DNA from: a virus
Length of the DNA stretch: 26,631 bases
Direction: 5' to 3' (one strand)
Virus record (IMG/VR): IMGVR_UViG_3300030109_002546
Location: 1 to 26,631 of that record
Position 1 is the first letter of the stretch. Each line of letters starts with the position of its first letter. Under the pieces are notes generated by a model. The model ran no database searches. It had not been told where the DNA came from and saw nothing but the letters and a program-made list of their open reading frames with translations. Positions 11,231 through 26,106 of this stretch are shown here, one piece after another. Position numbers and translations under genes: made by a program.

Positions 11231-11605
11231 CTACTCTCCTTTTTTACTCCATTCAAAAGTTTCTTGCAAAGGGTGTTCTGAAAATAAATTTTTATCATAA
11301 ATAACTTTGTTACCATCTACACCCAAAAAAATTCCTGTTTCATTTTCAGAATTAAACCCCATTTCAAAGCCTTTATAAAATAAACTTATATTTACTTCTT
11401 CTGGATTTGCGTGTATCCATAATGTTTTCTTTTCTTTGTTATATAGTTCACAACGAGATTCATACTGAATAGATGTATCGTCTGTAAATTCAATAAAAAA
11501 ACTACCCCTGCCTTTATTGTATTCAGATTGTTCGTTTTCTATTCTTTCTATTTTTATCTCATCAATGCGTTTCTGCCCAGTTGTTTCCGACACTGTATTC
11601 TCCAT
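11231..11605 (-). CDS. Unknown protein overlapping the polymerase end (124 aa)
   Basis: Starts MENTVSETTGQKRIDEIK inside the 3' end of the polymerase gene (44-base overlap). Predicted mostly beta strands (GSFFIEFTDD, KTLWIHANPEEV, IFLGVDGNKVIYD). Acidic, no cysteine cluster. The only internal Met lies late, so the long overlap seems real. It ends one base before the wHTH gene. Not recognised. Confidence 0.7.
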   Translation of the reverse strand: MENTVSETTGQKRIDEIKIERIENEQSEYNKGRGSFFIEFTDDTSIQYESRCELYNKEKKTLWIHANPEEVNISLFYKGFEMGFNSENETGIFLGVDGNKVIYDKNLFSEHPLQETFEWSKKGE

Positions 11606-13313
11606 CTAAAGGACAAGTTAATTCATAAGCACAAGTTACTTCGCGTATAGATTGTACTCCTAGTCTTCCTACTTCATCAGCTTGATCTTCTCTGACTTCT
11701 AACTGCCACTCATCATGCACATTAGCTACAAATCTTGCATCTAATTCTTTTGCTTTTAACTTTCTATTAAAGATAACCAAAGCTTTCTTCATAGTTATAG
11801 CACCTGCACCCTGCAATAATGTATTCAAAGCAGAGTGTTCACTTCTTACTAGTAGCTTCCGACCATCTAATCCTTTGAGGTAGCCCCTTGCAGAAGCTCT
11901 TGATACTCTATCCTTAAGAGTTTTAAATGATGGGAGACTAGCAAAGAATGATTCTCTAAGTCTTTTACCAGCTTCTCTGCCTCTTCCAACCACTGCCCCA
12001 AGCTTTGCATCTCCTGCTCCGTAGAGGAGTGCATATATAAATGTCTTCGCCTGAGATCTTGATTCAAGTCCTGCAAGTTTTTGATTAGCGGTATGAATAT
12101 CTCCGTTAAGTATTTCATTAGTGTACTCCTCATCATTCATATAAGATGCTAACATTCTTAATTCTAAACCAGAAGCATCGATACCTACAAGTTTATAACC
12201 GTTTGGGACTGTCCACAAGGAACGACATTCTTTACCATAAGGAGATGAGCAAGCAGGAACTTGAGCCATGTTAGGATCTCTATGAGTCATTCTCCCGGTA
12301 ATTGCTCCGTTAGTTATAACCCAACCATGAACCCTGTTATCATCACCAACAAACTTATTCCAAGATTCTATTTGAGAAACTCTTTTCTGTAACATTAAGT
12401 AACTGTTCATTAGGTCAGCTTCTTTAATGTTTTTTATTTTAGATAAGGTCTTCTCATTAACTATGGGTCTACCATTAGGCGTAAACTCTTTAGGTTTCCA
12501 ACCAAACTCTATTAAGTATTCTCCTGTCTGTTGCCTAGAGTTTAAATTAAACTCAACTACATCTACCCTGCATACTTCTTCTCCTGCAAGCATAGAGTTG
12601 TATTCCTGCTCAGTCATACGAACACCTTTGCCATGCTCAGTGTCTGCTAACTTAGAAAGCTTTCCTGTCTTTGTATATTTAGGTATTAGTTTTACTGAAG
12701 TTACTTTAGCTTTAAATACTTTCTTAACCTCATCTTCTATCTTAGATGTTTGCTCTCTTAGTTCTGCTAATAGAAGATCAGATTCATAAGCATTGTAGTA
12801 AAAACCTTTGTGTTGTTGGTCTTTTATTATCTTATAAACCTCATGCTCTAGCTCTACAGAATCCTTACTAAATCCCTTCGACTCTTCTTTAAGAGCATTG
12901 TAAACTCTGTGATTTAATTCAACATCTTGTATACAGTAATCTAACATCTCTGATGAGAAGGTTTCAAAGTTTTCAAATTCTATTTTCTTGAATCCTAATC
13001 TAGTACCCCAAGGATTTAAACCATGCCCTGCTTCTCTGCTAGGTCTGAATAGTCTAGAAAGAACTAAAGTATCTGTTATCTTTTTTCCCTCTGACAAATT
13101 TGTAAATGTGGTGAGGCTTTCAATAACAGGTATATCGAATCCTATAATGTTGTGACCTATTAGTTCATCTGCTTTATTTAATAGCGTACAGCCTTCATGC
13201 AGTTGATCTGGGCCGAAGATATATAACTGATTTGTATCTATATCTTTAGCAACAATACACCAAAGCTTAGTAGCTTCAACTGAATCTGTTTCTATATCAA
13301 ATAGAAGTCTCAT
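11562..13313 (-). CDS. DNA polymerase, family A, T7-like
   Basis: Replicative polymerase, 583 residues. The 3'-5' exonuclease is intact: LLFDIETD (D6, E8), NIIGFD (D60) and YCIQD (Y126, D130). Polymerase motif A is VGIDASGLELRMLA (D379), the O-helix is AKTFIYALLYGAG (K423, Y427, Y431) and motif C is NVHDEWQLEV (H533, D534, E535). The residue equivalent to E. coli Phe762 is Tyr (Y427), as in T7; virioplankton studies link Tyr or Phe there to lytic phages. The protein is shorter than T7 gp5 (704), and I see no obvious thioredoxin-binding insertion. Its ATG overlaps the helicase stop (ATGA). Confidence 0.97.
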   Translation of the reverse strand: MRLLFDIETDSVEATKLWCIVAKDIDTNQLYIFGPDQLHEGCTLLNKADELIGHNIIGFDIPVIESLTTFTNLSEGKKITDTLVLSRLFRPSREAGHGLNPWGTRLGFKKIEFENFETFSSEMLDYCIQDVELNHRVYNALKEESKGFSKDSVELEHEVYKIIKDQQHKGFYYNAYESDLLLAELREQTSKIEDEVKKVFKAKVTSVKLIPKYTKTGKLSKLADTEHGKGVRMTEQEYNSMLAGEEVCRVDVVEFNLNSRQQTGEYLIEFGWKPKEFTPNGRPIVNEKTLSKIKNIKEADLMNSYLMLQKRVSQIESWNKFVGDDNRVHGWVITNGAITGRMTHRDPNMAQVPACSSPYGKECRSLWTVPNGYKLVGIDASGLELRMLASYMNDEEYTNEILNGDIHTANQKLAGLESRSQAKTFIYALLYGAGDAKLGAVVGRGREAGKRLRESFFASLPSFKTLKDRVSRASARGYLKGLDGRKLLVRSEHSALNTLLQGAGAITMKKALVIFNRKLKAKELDARFVANVHDEWQLEVREDQADEVGRLGVQSIREVTCAYELTCPLDGEYSVGNNWAETH

Positions 13314-15004
13314 AAATTCAATGCTCCGAATGTTAATTGTTCCTCATCTAAAGGACTAAAGTTTTCATCTCCTTCTTTTACTTCACTAAGTCTACCAGTT
13401 TCATTATCAAAAACTAAATGAGTAGCTACACCCACATCTCCTGTATACCTGCTCTTTAATATCCGTACTCTCGTAGTAGATGCTTCGATAGGGTCATCGC
13501 TTTGTTGATTACGTTCTAAGGAGATAACGCAGTCAGATAGTTGCGCTATGCTTTGTGATCCTCTTAAATGGCTTAGACCTGTTTCTATGCCGTTCTCGTG
13601 ACCTCTATTACCATCTATCCTGCGAAGATGAGAGACAAGTATTACACCTGTTCCTGTCTCTTCAACTAATGTCCTGACTCTGTGCATTATAGAATCAATA
13701 GACCTGCGCTCATCACCTTCAGGAGAAGACGATACAAGCATATGAAGGTGATCAATAAATACCCACTTACAATTACAACCAACAATCATAAAGCGAAGCT
13801 TACTAAAGATAGAGTCTATGTCGTTAGCACCAAAGTGAGCGTGTATCCAAACTCTGTTTTTATTTTCTCCGTCATATAGAATGTCAAAGTATTTATCTAA
13901 TTCTTCCTCAGTAAACTGTTCGCGTATTCTATCGATATGTAGTTTAGCATCAGCCTCAATAGAAAGTATACCGTCAACAGTCCTATTAAAAGATTCTTCT
14001 AATGCGATTACTCCTACATTATCAGATGTTGTTTTAATTAACCAGTGCTGTAGCTCTCTCGTAACACTCGACTTCCCTAGCCCTGTACCTCCAGTGAGAG
14101 TAACTAATTCGCCTTGACGTATTCCTTCTAGCTTAGTATTTAATCCTGCCCAAGGATAAGGAATAGATTCTTTCTTCTCTCTATTCTTATACTTGTCCCT
14201 GTTTTCCGAAACACTAAGAACACCAGATGGTGTATAAGTTTTAGCTGCCCACCAAGCTTCAACATACTTCTTGTGTAGACGCTCCTTTAGCATATCGTTA
14301 GCATCTTTGAACTCTTCTGGAAGAGACATTAACTTAGCTTTAGATGGCTTCAATAACCTAGCTACCTTCTTAGCTGCTTCTCTTCCTTTCTTGTCTTCGT
14401 CAAAGTTAATTATAATAGTATCAAAACTTTCTAAGTATTCTAAAGATGCTTTGACATCGCGTTCAGCAGCAGCAGCCCCGGATCTGATAGAAACTACAGG
14501 CCACTTAGATCCTAGTAGTTCGTAAGCTGCCATAGCATCGCACTCACCTTCTACTAATGTTATATACTTTCCTCCTGCTTGAAATAGGTTCTCTCCAAAT
14601 AAACCACTGTCTCTAATATTACCTTTACTATAAAAATTCTGCTTACCAGTATCACCAAGAATCCTTTCTTTGAAAGCAACAATCTCCTTATCTCTGTAAT
14701 AAGGATAGATATGTTTAGCTATAGACCCATCTTGATTTAACTCGCAGCGAACACCATACTTTCTTGCAGTCTGTTCTGATATACCTCTATCAGTCAGTCG
14801 AACATACGTCCCTTGCTCTGCGAAAGTAAGTGGTTCTTTTTCTATTACTTTTAAATCTTGCATCTCGTCACCTACGTTTTCTCCGTATTGATATTTACTT
14901 AGCCTTGTGTTGCACGAAAAGCAAAATGCACTACCGTCCTCATTAACAGATAGTGCATCGCTAGAACTACAAACAGGACAAGGCTGATGTAGTTTAATAA
15001 ACAA
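13310..15004 (-). CDS. Primase-helicase, T7 gp4-like
   Basis: Bifunctional replisome motor, 564 residues. N-terminal zinc finger C9-x2-C12...C28-x2-C31, then Toprim-type catalytic motifs VEGECDAM (E152) and NFDEDKKG (D202, D204). The RecA-like helicase has Walker A GGTGLGKS (305-312), an LEE (E336-E337) catalytic region, Walker B VFIDHL (D418), LVSHLRR (H459) and a SRYTGDVG arginine-finger region. The start is a TTG at 15004 with GGAG eight bases before; no ATG precedes the zinc finger. Acidic tail, as in T7 gp4, may contact the polymerase. The full order primase then helicase on one chain is standard for T7-like phages. Confidence 0.97.
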   Translation of the reverse strand: MFIKLHQPCPVCSSSDALSVNEDGSAFCFSCNTRLSKYQYGENVGDEMQDLKVIEKEPLTFAEQGTYVRLTDRGISEQTARKYGVRCELNQDGSIAKHIYPYYRDKEIVAFKERILGDTGKQNFYSKGNIRDSGLFGENLFQAGGKYITLVEGECDAMAAYELLGSKWPVVSIRSGAAAAERDVKASLEYLESFDTIIINFDEDKKGREAAKKVARLLKPSKAKLMSLPEEFKDANDMLKERLHKKYVEAWWAAKTYTPSGVLSVSENRDKYKNREKKESIPYPWAGLNTKLEGIRQGELVTLTGGTGLGKSSVTRELQHWLIKTTSDNVGVIALEESFNRTVDGILSIEADAKLHIDRIREQFTEEELDKYFDILYDGENKNRVWIHAHFGANDIDSIFSKLRFMIVGCNCKWVFIDHLHMLVSSSPEGDERRSIDSIMHRVRTLVEETGTGVILVSHLRRIDGNRGHENGIETGLSHLRGSQSIAQLSDCVISLERNQQSDDPIEASTTRVRILKSRYTGDVGVATHLVFDNETGRLSEVKEGDENFSPLDEEQLTFGALNL

Positions 15005-15224: not shown

Positions 15225-15683
15225 CTATTCAAAAGCTAACGCATCGTTAGATCGATCTAGTGAGTCCTCTCTTTCTACTAGGTCAAGTATTTGAACAGCA
15301 ACTAACTGAGGACGTACAATAGTTTTACCTTGTCCTCCGTATGTTTTCTTATACCACTGGACTCTCACAGTAGAACCATTACCTATGTCACACTCTGACA
15401 ATATATTGCGGTCTTCGTCTACTACTCTAGGTGGCTGAGTAGGAGAGCCATCTGAGTTATTTGCCCATGTAGCAATTTTGACAATAGGATCAGGAGTATA
15501 CTTCTTTACTCCGGGTTCAAACAAGAAGACATCACTTATTCCTTGCTGCTTTAAGTTTTCAAAGTCTTTATCTGAAACAGCAAGAAACAATTCATACCAG
15601 TAACTCTTCTTATCGAATGAAGGGTTAGGTTCGTACAAGTGAGGAAAATAAATCTGTCCTTTTATAACATTAGAATTAGCCAT
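15225..15683 (-). CDS. Single-stranded DNA-binding protein, T7 gp2.5-like
   Basis: 152 residues. Early GQIYFPHLYEPNPSFDKKSY is the characteristic phage SSB entry, then YWYELFLAV, a Gly-rich loop, and RPQLVAVQILDL. The C-terminus is acidic and ends in Phe-Glu (DRSNDALAFE), like the gp2.5 tail that binds polymerase and helicase. It sits upstream of primase-helicase and polymerase, as expected for a replisome cluster. An alternative family name is DUF2815-like. Confidence 0.85.
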   Translation of the reverse strand: MANSNVIKGQIYFPHLYEPNPSFDKKSYWYELFLAVSDKDFENLKQQGISDVFLFEPGVKKYTPDPIVKIATWANNSDGSPTQPPRVVDEDRNILSECDIGNGSTVRVQWYKKTYGGQGKTIVRPQLVAVQILDLVEREDSLDRSNDALAFE

Positions 15684-21560: not shown

Positions 21561-22055
21561 TTAAGATGCTGCTTTCAAGTTATCTATTGCGCTCTTGACA
21601 ATAGCAGCGAGTTTATCGGAATTATGCTTATTGATTATCTTGCGCTCTTGTTTTGTTAATGCATTTTGGTAGTTATTCAAAACAGACTGTAACGATTTTT
21701 GCAGATCAAAATCTGTTACTTTTGTAGCGTTGCCGAATTCGTACCAGTTAACAGTTGGCACGTTGTATTCGATTGCCGCATTTTTGCTAACCTTCTTGAT
21801 TGTCAGCGTGTTGGTTTTCTTGTCATTCTTTACTGATACATTAACGTGCGCTGTAATGTACCGCAAAACTTGATTCATTGGCAACGTGCGAGTGCTGTTA
21901 ACTGCATTCAAAAGAATTGCCAAAAATTGCGTGTTGCCATGTTCTGCGTATTGCTCAAAAGATAACACCAATTCTGCTTGGATTTTATCCCGTACAGATG
22001 TAGCACTTTTTACAATAGTTTGAACACGTTTTTTGAAGTTATTTAAATTAGACAT
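21561..22055 (-). CDS. First gene of the leftward array, unknown (164 aa)
   Basis: Start taken at the ATG 22055 (GGGAG nine bases upstream), not at an ATG 38 codons earlier that would run through the promoter and repeat. MSNLNNFKKRVQTIVKSATS leads a helical region, then FEQYAEHGNTQFLAILLNAV and a beta-like NDKKTNTLTIKKVSK section with VNWYEF. The HGNTxxLxxLLNA block is a pattern I associate with a broad phage family of unknown function. Codon use is slightly more GC-rich than its neighbours. It is flanked on both sides by an inverted 27-bp element, so it may be strongly or auto-regulated. Confidence 0.75.
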   Translation of the reverse strand: MSNLNNFKKRVQTIVKSATSVRDKIQAELVLSFEQYAEHGNTQFLAILLNAVNSTRTLPMNQVLRYITAHVNVSVKNDKKTNTLTIKKVSKNAAIEYNVPTVNWYEFGNATKVTDFDLQKSLQSVLNNYQNALTKQERKIINKHNSDKLAAIVKSAIDNLKAAS

Positions 22056-22090
22056 AGTTTTTTGCTCCCACAAAAAAAATTGAATTAAAA

Positions 22091-22117
22091 AATAATAGTG
22101 ATCATATTGAAGTGATT
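22091..22117 (-). repeat. 27-bp element, copy B, over the -10 of the early promoter
   Basis: Partner of 21519-21545 in inverted orientation (24/27 identical). AGTGAT occurs at 22097-22102 and 22111-22116, and a third related AGTGAA at 22124-22129, spaced 14 and 13 bases. The element covers the predicted -10 box and would block or aid polymerase if bound. Confidence 0.6.
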
Positions 22118-22129
22118 TAAAGAAGTGAA
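22101..22129 (-). promoter_or_regulatory. Predicted leftward early promoter
   Basis: Minus strand TTCACT (22124-22129), 17-base spacer, TATGAT (22101-22106; five of six match consensus). It precedes the first gene of the leftward array by about 45 bases and overlaps the repeated element. Sequence match only. Confidence 0.5.
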
Positions 22130-22140
22130 CGAGAGACAAT

Positions 22141-22159
22141 GCAAGCGATATCGCGTTGC
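22141..22159. promoter_or_regulatory. Palindrome GCGATATCGC with flanking GCAA/TTGC
   Basis: A perfect 10-bp palindrome (22145-22154) is flanked by GCAA (22141-22144) and TTGC (22156-22159), one extra G breaking full symmetry. It is 12 bases upstream of the -35 of the leftward promoter, the right place for an activator or repressor dimer. Confidence 0.4.
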
Positions 22160-22740
22160 GAGTATGCAATCCATGCCGCCAATATTTGAGAAAGCCATTA
22201 GCCGACTATTAAAAAAAAGAGTTTGAAATAATAAGCGTAGACAATGCCGACACTATCTCTCATTCGTGAACATATACACGACCATTACTGATTAGTACTT
22301 CTTGACCTACTGATTCATAGCCATCCTAGCGTATAAAATCAGCATCCAATGATACCATTCTAAAAAGAAGCGTGTGCGCTCATTTGAAAGACTCGCCTTA
22401 CTTGGTACGGCATAACTTCTCGGACAATACCCAGTAATTAACAGTGATGGCATTTTCGGCAATCTGCTACCGCAAGTCTCTCGACTCTCATTTCCAGCCG
22501 CGCAATTGAGGGACAAACATCACCGCATACCAACTGTTTCTGGAAACTAGGTTCTCTATGTTTTGGCGCTGATTGATCCTCGCCTCATCTCCACTTTGAA
22601 CCTTGCAAGATTTGAAATAACATCTCACTAGTAGCCATCTTAAGAGATTGGCAGATAAGATCCAATGCTTTGTATTTATGATTTAAAATAAGTTTATACC
22701 AAAATGTAATATTATCATTTCATAGGTATATAGTAGGCAG
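22160..22740. other. Non-coding stretch of higher GC, function unknown
   Basis: No reading frame with a ribosome site and protein-like content. A 69-codon minus-strand frame (22307-22516) starts with TTG, lacks a ribosome site and reads as random. Base composition is visibly richer in G and C than the following kilobase. On the minus strand TGGTATAAACT at 22691-22701 could start a leftward transcript across this segment, so an untranslated RNA is possible. No tRNA fold seen. Confidence 0.4.
22691..22701 (-). promoter_or_regulatory. Extended -10 like motif TGGTATAAACT
   Basis: An exact 11-base copy of the motif at the predicted promoter 19743-19753. It has the TGn extension but no good -35. 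It would drive transcription leftward over the non-coding stretch toward the early genes. Confidence 0.3.
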
Positions 22741-22743
22741 ATT

Positions 22744-22752
22744 TGTGGATAA
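22744..22752 (-). promoter_or_regulatory. DnaA box 1 (TGTGGATAA)
   Basis: Complement of TTATCCACA, the strict E. coli DnaA box. A second copy follows 20 bases later in the same orientation. Confidence 0.6.
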
Positions 22753-22763
22753 CTTTTTCAGCC

Positions 22764-22772
22764 TGTGGATAA
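22764..22772 (-). promoter_or_regulatory. DnaA box 2 (TGTGGATAA)
   Basis: Same orientation as box 1, start-to-start distance 20 bases, about two helical turns, so both could be bound on one face. Confidence 0.6.
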
Positions 22773-22843
22773 GTGCTAAGTGCCTGATTTATAAGGATAA
22801 ATAAAACACAATAAAAACAAAGACTTGCGAGACATTCTTAATA

Positions 22844-22868
22844 AATCACTTTTTTCTGGTGATTTTTG
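22844..22868 (+). terminator. Hairpin AATCAC...GTGATT followed by T residues
   Basis: AATCAC (22844-22849) pairs with GTGATT (22859-22864), continuing into TTTTG. Short stem, weak. It could end a transcript or be part of the origin structure. Confidence 0.3.
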
Positions 22869-22915
22869 CCTTTTGTAAGTCCCCGTTTTTATTAGGTTTT
22901 TTTTTGAGCTAAAAG

Positions 22916-22924
22916 TTATCCACA
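22916..22924 (+). promoter_or_regulatory. DnaA box 3 (TTATCCACA)
   Basis: Perfect strict box in the opposite orientation to boxes 1 and 2, about 150 bases to their right. Just beyond lies a short tandem AAGGCCGTTT repeat (22934-22954). Confidence 0.6.
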
Positions 22925-23013
22925 TGCCCCTAGAAGGCCGTTTAAGGCCGTTTTAAGCGACTTTATCAGAAACCCATACCACGCTATTAAAAACTTTTTT
23001 TCGTGGCATACGC

Positions 23014-23032
23014 GGAAAATCGGCATTTTTCC
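23014..23032. repeat. Hairpin GGAAAA...TTTTCC
   Basis: Perfect six-base arms (23014-23019, 23027-23032) with a seven-base loop. A second short dyad CCACG/CGTGG (22979-22983, 23002-23006) lies just to the left. Confidence 0.35.
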
Positions 23033-23116
23033 AAAATTCTACTTACGGCACAAAGTTAATGTAGATTCTAGTTCTACCTGACTGAAAAAATGGCAGTCTA
23101 TCGGATGATTTAAAAG

Positions 23117-23222
23117 CTTGGGAATCTGTTGAATATGGCCCAGACCATGTTGAAAATTGCTGACTATTCTGAATATTTAAAACTGGCTGGCCTATTGTAA
23201 ATCTTGGGAATATTTTGAATAT
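23117..23222 (+). repeat. Spaced 20-bp direct repeat CTTGGGAAT...TTGAATAT
   Basis: Copies at 23117-23136 and 23203-23222 differ at only two positions and lie 86 bases apart. The second copy leads straight into the 34-bp tandem repeats. Confidence 0.5.
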
Positions 23223-23224
23223 TG

Positions 23225-23326
23225 TTCAAATTCCCGAACTTCTCAGGTTTGAACAATATTCAAATTCCTGAACTTCTCAGGTTTGAACAATATTCAAATT
23301 CCCGAACTTCTCAGGTTTGAATATTA
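23225..23326 (+). repeat. Three tandem 34-bp repeats with internal dyads
   Basis: Units 23225-23258, 23259-23292 and 23293-23326 are adjacent with no spacers. Units 1 and 2 differ at one base and unit 3 diverges only at its right end. Each starts TTCAAATTCCCGAACTTCTC (C or T at position 11) and contains TTCAAA...TTTGAA. At unit borders GAATATTGTTCAAA on the left and TTTGAACAATATTC on the right form a 14-bp dyad with a 17-base loop. They read as iterons or a multi-site operator. Confidence 0.9.
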
Positions 23327-23354
23327 TTCAAATTTTAAATATTGCGAATAGATT

Positions 23355-23370
23355 TTCTCAGAAATGAGAA
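23355..23370. repeat. Hairpin TTCTCA-GAAA-TGAGAA
   Basis: Perfect 6-bp stem closed by a GAAA tetraloop, between the 34-bp and 35-bp repeat blocks. In RNA this would be a stable small hairpin. Confidence 0.5.
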
Positions 23371-23380
23371 TTGAACAATA

Positions 23381-23450
23381 TTCTCAATAGTGAAAATCAT
23401 TCTCTATTGTGAATATTCTCAATAGTGAAAATCATTCTCAATAGCGAATG
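23381..23450 (+). repeat. Two tandem 35-bp repeats
   Basis: Units 23381-23415 and 23416-23450 share TTCTCAATAGTGAAAATCAT and the following four bases exactly, then differ at a few positions. Within each unit the theme TTCTC-AATAG-GAA occurs twice, so a shorter half-unit of about 20 and 15 bases may be the ancestor. Distinct in sequence from the 34-bp block. Confidence 0.8.
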
Positions 23451-23482
23451 GGGGTGGGCAGGTGGCCGTAGGGGGTGGGGGG
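23450..23482 (+). other. G-rich tract with G-quadruplex potential
   Basis: Runs GGGGG (23450-23454), GGG (23456-23458), GGGGG (23471-23475) and GGGGGG (23477-23482) on the plus strand, with loops of 1, 12 and 1 bases. It is the only G-rich stretch in this very AT-rich segment and directly abuts the 35-bp repeats. Confidence 0.6.
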
Positions 23483-23541
23483 TAGTAGAAAGGCATTCTC
23501 AAATATTTTGCACTATTTTCCAATTGTAAAGCATACAAATA

Positions 23542-23590
23542 GTTAGTGAACACTTACATAATTATTAATAGTTAGTTAGTACTCACTAAC
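23542..23590. repeat. Inverted repeat GTTAGTGA...TCACTAAC
   Basis: Perfect 8-bp arms (23542-23549 and 23583-23590). The DNA between is AT-rich with more GTTAGT copies near 23571-23580. Likely an operator pair or origin element. Confidence 0.45.
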
Positions 23591-23635
23591 ATATTGGTTA
23601 TTTATTAAGCAGATTTGGGACGCTAGAGGGGGAAT

Positions 23636-23674
23636 ATTCAAAATATTCAAAATAGTATTAAGAATATTTTGAAT
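23636..23674. repeat. 13-bp perfect inverted repeat in AT-rich DNA
   Basis: ATTCAAAATATTC (23636-23648) and GAATATTTTGAAT (23662-23674), loop 13 bases. The same GAATATTTTGAAT also occurs at 23208-23220 next to the 34-bp repeats. The following 60 bases are nearly pure A/T, a candidate unwinding element. Confidence 0.65.
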
Positions 23675-23762
23675 TAATATTTAAATATATATATAAAATT
23701 TATTCTGAATAGTAAAATACTATTGGAAATATTCTAAATATTATACACTTGATTGTTAACCT

Positions 23763-23781
23763 TGTCAAGTACTTCTTGACA
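23763..23781. promoter_or_regulatory. Operator-like dyad over the -35 box
   Basis: TGTCAAG (23763-23769) and CTTGACA (23775-23781) are perfect 7-bp arms around a 5-base centre. The right arm contains the whole TTGACA. GTTAAC palindromes flank the promoter at 23755-23760 and 23805-23810. Confidence 0.5.
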
Positions 23782-23804
23782 TTTTCTTAATCTATGTGTA
23801 TAAT
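23776..23804 (+). promoter_or_regulatory. Perfect consensus sigma70 promoter for terminase genes
   Basis: TTGACA (23776-23781), exactly 17 bases, TATAAT (23799-23804). Transcription should start near 23811-23812, one or two bases before the terminase small subunit ATG. A TGTGTATAA DnaA-box match (23795-23803) overlaps the -10. Confidence 0.85.
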
Positions 23805-23812
23805 GTTAACTT

Positions 23813-24259
23813 ATGGGACATATATCGAAATTTATACCTAAAGATTCTAGACCTAGTAAAGATAGAGAGTTAACAGAAAAACAACAGGTTTTTTTGGACA
23901 GCCTTTTACATACAGGGGGTGATCCTAAACGTGCAGCAGAGCTTGCAGGATATGCCGAAGGAAGTTATCCACAAGTATTGCGAAGCTTACAAACAGAAGT
24001 GATAGACTTAGCCTCTCATATTCTTGCTCAATCTGCACCTCAAGCCGCTTTTAAACTAGTAGAAGTAATGAACTCAGACGAAGCAATACCTCAAGTCAAT
24101 ACTAAACTACAAGCGGCACAAACTATACTAGATAGAGTAGGTGTTTCTAAAACAGATAGGCTTGATATTAACCATAATGTAGATACTGATGCAGGAAGTC
24201 TATTTATATTACCTGCTAAAACAGTAAATACTTATGAAGGTCAATTAGAGGAAGCTTAG
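23813..24259 (+). CDS. terS: Terminase small subunit
   Basis: 148 residues. DNA-recognition partner of the packaging motor. The N-terminal basic tail is followed by an HTH-type region LTEKQQVFLDSLLHTGGDPK and RAAELAGYAEGSYPQVLRSL (about 21-60), typical of phage small terminases. A helical oligomerisation region (IDLASHILAQSAPQAAFKLV) follows, then an acidic, flexible C-terminus for contact with the large subunit. No ribosome site precedes the ATG and the promoter leaves almost no leader. The stop overlaps the large-subunit start (TAGTG). Confidence 0.9.
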   Translation: MGHISKFIPKDSRPSKDRELTEKQQVFLDSLLHTGGDPKRAAELAGYAEGSYPQVLRSLQTEVIDLASHILAQSAPQAAFKLVEVMNSDEAIPQVNTKLQAAQTILDRVGVSKTDRLDINHNVDTDAGSLFILPAKTVNTYEGQLEEA

Positions 24260-26106
24260 TGGACTTACCTTTAACTAAGCCTATAAAGGCAGGAAGTGTT
24301 CCTTTTGGGTATGTAGTTGCAGAAGATAAGTCTTGTTATGAAGCTATACCTGAACATATAGAGGCTCTTAAAGATACAGTAGAGGGTGTTATATCAGGAA
24401 AGGTAGCTAGTTACAGAGAAGCAAAAGAAATAATAGAAAGTATTTGCAAAGGTTCTACTATTTCACATCAGACAATCAGTAACTATGTTCGTCAAGAAAA
24501 AATAGATTTAGGTATTGCTAAACCTCGCAGACCTTATGAATATAAAGAATCAGTTAAAAAGAAGAAAGCAGCACAACGCTCTCTTAGAACTAAACTAAAA
24601 CAAGAAGAAAAACTAGAAAAGAAACTGGCAGTAGTTAAGAGTACAATAAGAAGACAAACCAAACTACAATCTAAGTTAGATGAGCCAGTAGATTTAAAAA
24701 CAACAGAAGGTAAAGTAATTGATTTAGCAGAAGTAGAAAAGCTTCCTGAATCAGTACAAGAAGAATTTAATAATAAAGAAGTTATCTTTCAGCCAAACGA
24801 AGGCCCACAGACAGACTTCTTAGCAGCCCCAGAAACGGACGTATTGTACGGTGGAGCAGCAGGTGGAGGTAAATCCTATGCCATGCTCGTAGATCCCCTT
24901 AGATACGCTCACAGGGGCGCACACAGGGCGTTAATACTTAGACGCTCAATGCCAGAGTTAAGAGAACTAATCGATAAGTCTAGAGAGTTATATCCAAGGG
25001 CTTTTCCCGGTTGTAAGTTTAGGGAAGTAGAAAAGGTTTGGACATTCCCTTCAGGGTCTAAAGTAGAGTTTGGATTCCTTGAAAGAGATGCAGATGTTTA
25101 CAGGTATCAGGGACAAGCTTATTCTTGGATAGGCTTTGATGAGATAACTCATTTACCTACAGAGTTTAGTTGGAATTATTTAGCATCTCGACTACGGACA
25201 ACAGATTCAAAAATAGTTCCGTATATGAGATGCACGGCTAACCCCGGAGGTGTTGGTTCTAACTGGGTAAAGAAGAGATATGTAGATCCTTATCCTTCTA
25301 ATGAAAGTTTTACTGGTTCTGACGGATTAAGTAGAAAGTTTATACCAGCTAAATTAGAAGATAATCCGTATCTTGCTGAAGATGGCAGATACGAACAGAT
25401 GTTAAATGCGTTGCCTCCTACTCAACGTAAGCAGTTACTAGAAGGTAATTGGGATGTAGCAGAGGGAGCAGCATTTACAGAGTTTGATTTTGAGCAACAC
25501 GTTATTCCTCCTTTTGAAATTCCTGTTAATTGGGAAAGAGTAAAAGGAATAGACTATGGTTATGCTTCTGAAAGTGCGTGTGTATGGGGAGCAATGGACA
25601 GCACAGACGGAACTTTAATTATTTACAGGGAGCTATATCGTAAAAATTTAACTGGTAGTGAATTAGGAGAACTTCTAACCGAAATGGAACTAGAAGATCC
25701 TTTTTCTGTAGCAGGAGTTTTAGATACAGCTTGTTGGAATAGGACAGGAACAACTGGCCCTACGGTAGGAGAGACACTAGTTCGTGCAGGTCATAAGCTT
25801 CGTAGGGCTGATAAAAACAGAATTCAGGGTAAAATACAAATTCACGAATACTTGAAGTTACAGCAAAGCGGCAGACCAAAACTACAAATATTTAATAATT
25901 GTCCTAATCTGATACGCGAACTTCAAAGTATCCCTCTGGATAAAAACAATCCTGAAGATGTAGATACCAAAGCGTCTGACCATGCGTATGATGCTTTAAG
26001 GTATTTAATAATGTCTAGACCAAAAATACAAGATTCATTTAGCAGAATAAGAAATCTACATTTGGAACAGGCTTACACCCCGGCTGATAGCACATTTGGC
26101 TATTAG
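24259..26106 (+). CDS. terL: Terminase large subunit with N-terminal HTH-like extension
   Basis: Packaging ATPase-nuclease, 615 residues, GTG start sharing a base with the terS stop. ATPase: Walker A YGGAAGGGKS (about 197-206), Walker B WIGFDEITHL (D294, E295), coupling motif CTANPGG (325-331). RNase H-like nuclease: GIDYGY (D432), VLDTACW (D489) and SDHAYDALRY (D574, D578). Unusually, about 175 residues precede the ATPase. Residues 14-80, from VPFGYVVAEDK through SYREAKEIIES to STISHQTISNYVRQEK, resemble the linker/HTH domain of serine recombinases. A Lys/Glu-rich coiled coil (about 95-140) comes next. The extension may help recognise the packaging site. Confidence 0.95.
   Translation: MDLPLTKPIKAGSVPFGYVVAEDKSCYEAIPEHIEALKDTVEGVISGKVASYREAKEIIESICKGSTISHQTISNYVRQEKIDLGIAKPRRPYEYKESVKKKKAAQRSLRTKLKQEEKLEKKLAVVKSTIRRQTKLQSKLDEPVDLKTTEGKVIDLAEVEKLPESVQEEFNNKEVIFQPNEGPQTDFLAAPETDVLYGGAAGGGKSYAMLVDPLRYAHRGAHRALILRRSMPELRELIDKSRELYPRAFPGCKFREVEKVWTFPSGSKVEFGFLERDADVYRYQGQAYSWIGFDEITHLPTEFSWNYLASRLRTTDSKIVPYMRCTANPGGVGSNWVKKRYVDPYPSNESFTGSDGLSRKFIPAKLEDNPYLAEDGRYEQMLNALPPTQRKQLLEGNWDVAEGAAFTEFDFEQHVIPPFEIPVNWERVKGIDYGYASESACVWGAMDSTDGTLIIYRELYRKNLTGSELGELLTEMELEDPFSVAGVLDTACWNRTGTTGPTVGETLVRAGHKLRRADKNRIQGKIQIHEYLKLQQSGRPKLQIFNNCPNLIRELQSIPLDKNNPEDVDTKASDHAYDALRYLIMSRPKIQDSFSRIRNLHLEQAYTPADSTFGY

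Follow-up and report, generated by a model that had tools for sequence, protein, structure and literature searches.

How replication starts in phages that carry a T7-like replisome without a T7-type RNA polymerase is a question raised by an abundant group of marine podoviruses, and the literature found on this group names replication genes and no origin. T7 itself uses the RNA polymerase that it encodes to initiate replication. The DNA analysed here, referred to below as the window, is an entire virus record of 26,631 bases that represents only part of a phage genome, about half of which is missing. Its DNA polymerase is ~51% identical to those of the Pelagibacter phages HTVC103P, HTVC104P and HTVC115P and its terminase large subunit (TerL) is 62–67% identical to theirs, which places the window with the HMO-2011/HTVC103P-type marine podoviruses, a group with the same divergent gene layout. 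Leftward from a divergent gap run genes for a primase-helicase, a family A polymerase, a gp2.5-like single-strand DNA-binding protein (SSB), a Cas4-type exonuclease, an endonuclease and a ribonucleotide reductase, while the terminase small subunit (TerS) and TerL lie rightward. The genes that bear on the argument are as follows.

11562–13313, minus strand: family A DNA polymerase
13310–15004, minus strand: T7-type primase-helicase
15225–15683, minus strand: gp2.5-like SSB
21561–22169, minus strand: first leftward gene, function not assigned, likely ATG start at about 22055
23813–24259, plus strand: TerS, which holds an exact TTATCCACA at 23965–23973
24259–26106, plus strand: TerL

The outward-facing gene blocks are 1,757 bp apart, in agreement with the divergent gap of about 1.7 kb described in an earlier sequence-only reading, which had also called the replisome T7-like, as the family A polymerase, primase-helicase and gp2.5-like SSB bear out. 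The ~570 bp at 22170–22740 contain no recognisable gene and have no match among phage records, and RNA-family and tRNA searches returned no credible match. No single-subunit RNA polymerase (PF00940) was found in the window, in any of three complete isolates or among the near-complete relatives, under a search that matches the T7 positive control. Since the group is without a T7-type RNA polymerase, T7-style priming is unavailable to it and the involvement of host factors is a sensible idea. No phage-encoded DnaA was found either, so that any DnaA involved would be that of the host.

Promoters and repeats of the divergent gap

The TerS-proximal part of the gap presents two repeat arrays, an AT-rich stretch and a pair of promoters.

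23214–23334, no strand: 34-bp direct repeat, 3.6 copies, with the palindrome TTTGAACAATATTCAAA in each
23380–23448, no strand: second repeat array, 19/35-bp units
23633–23742, no strand: AT-rich DNA with inverted repeats, a candidate region for unwinding
23740–23768, minus strand: perfect sigma70 promoter TTGACA-17-TATAAT, predicted to drive the leftward early/replication genes
23776–23804, plus strand: perfect sigma70 promoter TTGACA-17-TATAAT, predicted to drive TerS/TerL

Both tandem arrays and the AT-rich inverted repeats had been noted in the sequence-only reading and are confirmed at these positions, as is a G-rich tract at 23449–23490. Back-to-back promoters, each matching the consensus at 11 or all 12 of its bases, recur in 34 of 47 non-redundant relatives, where the pair is mostly located within ~130 bp of TerS. 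With no single-subunit RNA polymerase in the group, early transcription most likely depends on the host RNA polymerase.

The 34-bp repeat has no match in any other viral contig and thus led to no closer relatives. The direct repeats had been taken for part of an iteron-type origin; they are indeed present, but the window proteins searched, with half of the genome missing, include no Rep-type initiator. The cumulative GC skew that had been proposed as a check does have its minimum in the gap region, but at the same place as the coding-strand switch, and being confounded with gene direction it was dropped as evidence for an origin.

A conserved element upstream of TerS

Comparison of the gaps revealed a 65-base element consisting of GGGCAGGWGGCCA, then a G or C run, TATATATACTA and ATACATTTT. 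The G-rich tract corresponds to the window's copy, which scores 38.6 bits (E 9e-10) with a sequence model in whose training set it was itself included.

23451–23514, plus strand: conserved element, GGGTGGGCAGGTGGCCGTA-G run-...GGCATTCTCAAATATTTTG

At E<1e-4 this model finds the element in 57 of 86 loci, a set that includes its 27 training sequences, always as one copy, in the orientation of TerS and just upstream of it. A pattern scan of viral contigs returned 68 stretches, 67 of which were analysed; in 66 of these 67 further contigs the element precedes the TerS match by 138–331 bp, the remaining contig ending 45 bp past the element. The short core is essentially single in each genome and its reversed control gives no match. 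In the window the element is ~220 bp into the leftward transcript, with the three exact DnaA boxes described below further upstream. Among 55 distinct sequences the run is C in 38, G in 9 and both in 8, and a run that can occur on either strand points to a feature of the DNA, not of an RNA; a strand-specific RNA structure, as in an RNA-leader or G-quadruplex reading, is accordingly unlikely. The literature searched contained no account of an HMO-2011/HTVC103P-type origin or of this element, which is previously unremarked and, on the sequences compared, conserved by the family together with the host-type promoter pair.

The DNA on the far side of the element from TerS differs between lineages. 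Across 78 non-redundant gaps, stems of 9 bp or more with short loops occupy 67 bases in every kb, compared with 1.9 in shuffled sequence, a ~35-fold excess, and 0.1 in the downstream genes. Perfect palindromes sit directly upstream of the element in many relatives, while at that position the window has direct repeats with short palindromes and the locus L049 has DnaA boxes. In L243, L233, L291, L280, L055, L272 and others, long perfect hairpins with stems of up to 33 bp, as many as ten per gap, tile the DNA upstream of TerS.

Contig ends also gather in this region: 18 of 43 ends in relatives are within 500 bp of TerS, and ends, which may be assembly breaks or packaging ends, are frequent 250–500 bp upstream of TerS, just upstream of the element.

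DnaA boxes in the window and its relatives

Three exact DnaA boxes, found where the sequence-only reading had placed them, lie at the other end of the gap.

22744–22752, minus strand: exact TTATCCACA, tandem partner of the 22764–22772 box
22764–22772, minus strand: exact TTATCCACA, 20 bp from the 22744–22752 box
22916–22924, plus strand: exact TTATCCACA, in the orientation opposite to the other two

Together they span only 181 bp of the 1,757-bp gap, in which 0.013–0.022 exact copies of TTATCCACA are expected (~0.24 over the whole window), giving a Poisson P for three or more of 4e-7 to 2e-6, that is about 1e-6. The relaxed consensus TTWTNCACA shows no enrichment over the whole window (5 found, 3.3 expected); it is the three strict clustered boxes, not the relaxed-consensus count, that exceed chance. 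A fourth box had been claimed at 23795–23803 (TTATACACA), but this sequence overlaps the -10 hexamer of the plus-strand promoter and was rejected as a DnaA box. The exact box inside TerS, which the sequence-only reading did not mention, is probably a chance match. The three boxes are 530–700 bp from the conserved element and ~700–900 bp from the AT-rich stretch. A host or plasmid source was looked for, and the exact 29-mer of the box pair is absent from 84,980 genomes; the gap has no real match among phage records, only low-score ones of 52 bp.

Non-conservation in relatives had been named in advance as an observation that would speak against the boxes, and they are in fact absent from most relatives. 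No exact box occurs in most of the large relatives, and HTVC103P, HTVC104P and HTVC115P have no DnaA box in the available gap stretch. The closest relative by TerL, L005, is on a contig that ends 400 bp upstream of TerS, beyond the reach of the box comparison, and two loci found through the 19784 gene have a gap without boxes. Among 57 loci with enough upstream sequence, box clusters that beat all 40 shuffles are found in the window, L049, L064, L036 and the near-duplicate pair L032/L033, and L166, which is more distantly related, carries a tandem box pair ~700 bp upstream of its TerS match. The clusters of other lineages are on the same side of the element as that of the window, and those of L049, L064, L036 and L032/L033 are arrays with an 11-bp period, which phases them with the helix. 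The L049 array, TTATCCACAGG-AAACTCACAGG-TTATCCACAGC-TTCTTAACAAG-TTCTTAACAAG-TTATTAACAGG, abuts the conserved element. In an independent set of 67 gaps a box is present in one lineage only (four contigs), within a long hairpin. As judged from these loci, the DnaA boxes are lineage-specific, with clusters in the window and about five other lineages.

Comparison with known origins

Iteron plasmid and P1-type theta origins combine direct repeats, DnaA boxes and AT-rich DNA. The same three parts occur in the window, which differs in that no Rep-type initiator was found, the repeats are not beside the boxes, and polymerase and primase-helicase are phage-encoded. With the primary origin of T7 the window shares T7-like replisome proteins and promoters next to AT-rich DNA, but the group is without a T7-type RNA polymerase and the promoters are of the host sigma70 type. 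Lambda replication uses O/P and the host replisome, whereas the replisome of the window is phage-encoded. As in the window, host promoters and DnaA boxes come together in the replication region of lambda (pR/pO; PMC3985674), and DnaA boxes are mentioned for a phage origin that Ori-Finder predicted (PMC11512268); the literature searched has no such mention for the HMO-2011/HTVC103P-type phages. Tandem exact boxes beside AT-rich DNA are a feature shared with the unwinding module of bacterial oriC, for which three DnaA-trios are required and boxes up to 3 bp apart (PMC8287927). In the window the 22744 box is followed by two GAT trios at a 7-base spacer, and the boxes are 11 bp apart, not up to 3 (PMC8287927). 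A search for DnaA-trios (at least three NAN within 16 bases of a box) found only two, and even three are reached at 31% of random positions; the bacterial DnaA-box/DnaA-trio architecture was rejected, two trios not being significant. Because the trio rule and conservation failed and no cognate initiator was found, we do not file the region as oriC-like or iteron-type; at most it resembles a DnaA-assisted phage origin.

Origin, regulation or packaging

Taken as a whole, the gap is a phage control region and a probable replication origin (or packaging start), to which DnaA would be recruited in some lineages. In its full form the reading that we favour, tentatively, is that a lytic HMO-2011/HTVC103P-type podovirus has only one control region, the 1.7-kb gap, which is also its replication origin, with DnaA as a lineage-specific aid. 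The back-to-back host sigma70-type promoters would direct the replication genes leftward and the packaging and structural genes rightward. Replication would start in the gap, where the opening of AT-rich DNA may be helped by host RNA polymerase and, in this lineage, by box-bound host DnaA; the phage primase-helicase would then load on the opened DNA and the family A polymerase extend from there. The conserved element beside TA-rich DNA and the host promoters would form the core, and the lineage-variable zone upstream may carry what is needed to open or mark the DNA, here perhaps host DnaA, which would thus be a lineage-specific aid or regulator and not the core of the family's origin. Support for an origin comes from the number of boxes above chance, the conservation of promoters and element, the missing RNA polymerase and the phased arrays of relatives; it is weakened because most relatives with the same replisome and element have no gap box, because the boxes are far from the element and the AT-rich stretch, and because the skew minimum is confounded. 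The mixed strategy of the sequence-only reading, a T7-like replisome served by a host-initiator origin, is therefore sustained in part: the replisome, the unavailability of T7-style priming and the phased box arrays of a few relatives agree with it, but the boxes are absent from most relatives and one of the four is a promoter -10.

A serious rival for the boxes, though in our estimate rather unlikely, is that they do not start phage replication: by binding host DnaA they would regulate transcription or titrate the protein, so that early transcription follows host growth or initiation in the host is blocked. The boxes are near strong host promoters and vary between lineages as many regulatory sites do, and there is a precedent in phage lambda, where boxes by pO give a DnaA footprint and transcriptional activation of the origin is stimulated by DnaA (PMC3985674). 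However, the leftward promoter starts ~800–1,000 bp upstream of them, a distance at which a direct activator would be unusual, and the helically phased arrays of relatives resemble cooperative assembly sites. A further reading, that the boxes have no function and arose by chance or came with a recent insertion, would fit their lack of conservation in close relatives and the surrounding 600 bp, which are without recognisable genes and have only the short matches already mentioned; it is very unlikely given the Poisson probability of the cluster and the comparable clusters in several other lineages.

For the element the serious rival is packaging. An origin and a packaging site are equally compatible with its fixed place ahead of TerS. 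In this rival, which we consider unlikely, the gap is no origin and TerS recognises the element as a pac or cos-like site at which packaging begins; in keeping with it, the element is unique, oriented and always at a short distance from the TerS match, and contig ends are frequent there. Many contigs nevertheless run through the element site, near-complete contigs end at scattered places, and constant ends are not seen in complete records, that of HTVC103P beginning at a start codon without a terminal repeat, which makes a fixed cut such as a cos site less likely. A headful pac site at the element is possible, and the tie of the element to TerS makes headful packaging a serious competitor of the origin reading.

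The favoured reading can be widened, doubtfully, to the whole group: widespread marine podoviruses without an RNA polymerase may use an undescribed type of origin in which the GC-block/TA-rich element and perfect host promoters are combined with an interchangeable recruitment zone, made of hairpins in most lineages and of DnaA-box arrays or iteron-like repeats in others, DnaA being one opener among several that can be plugged in to serve a T7-like replisome. As a single-copy element that can be found by a short pattern, the conserved sequence offers a concrete place for origin testing, and the DnaA boxes mark a lineage in which use of the host initiator can be tested directly.

DnaA-box pairs in other viruses

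The tandem arrangement TTATCCACA-N11-TTATCCACA occurs in at least 120 viral stretches and its reversed control in none. Pairs of DnaA boxes are thus carried by viruses in general, though some of these contigs may be host or plasmid DNA. A full-length T7-type primase-helicase is encoded in 3 of the 50 tandem-pair records examined. Tandem DnaA boxes accompany a T7-type primase-helicase in L105, L116 and L180, which are candidates for the same mixed strategy.
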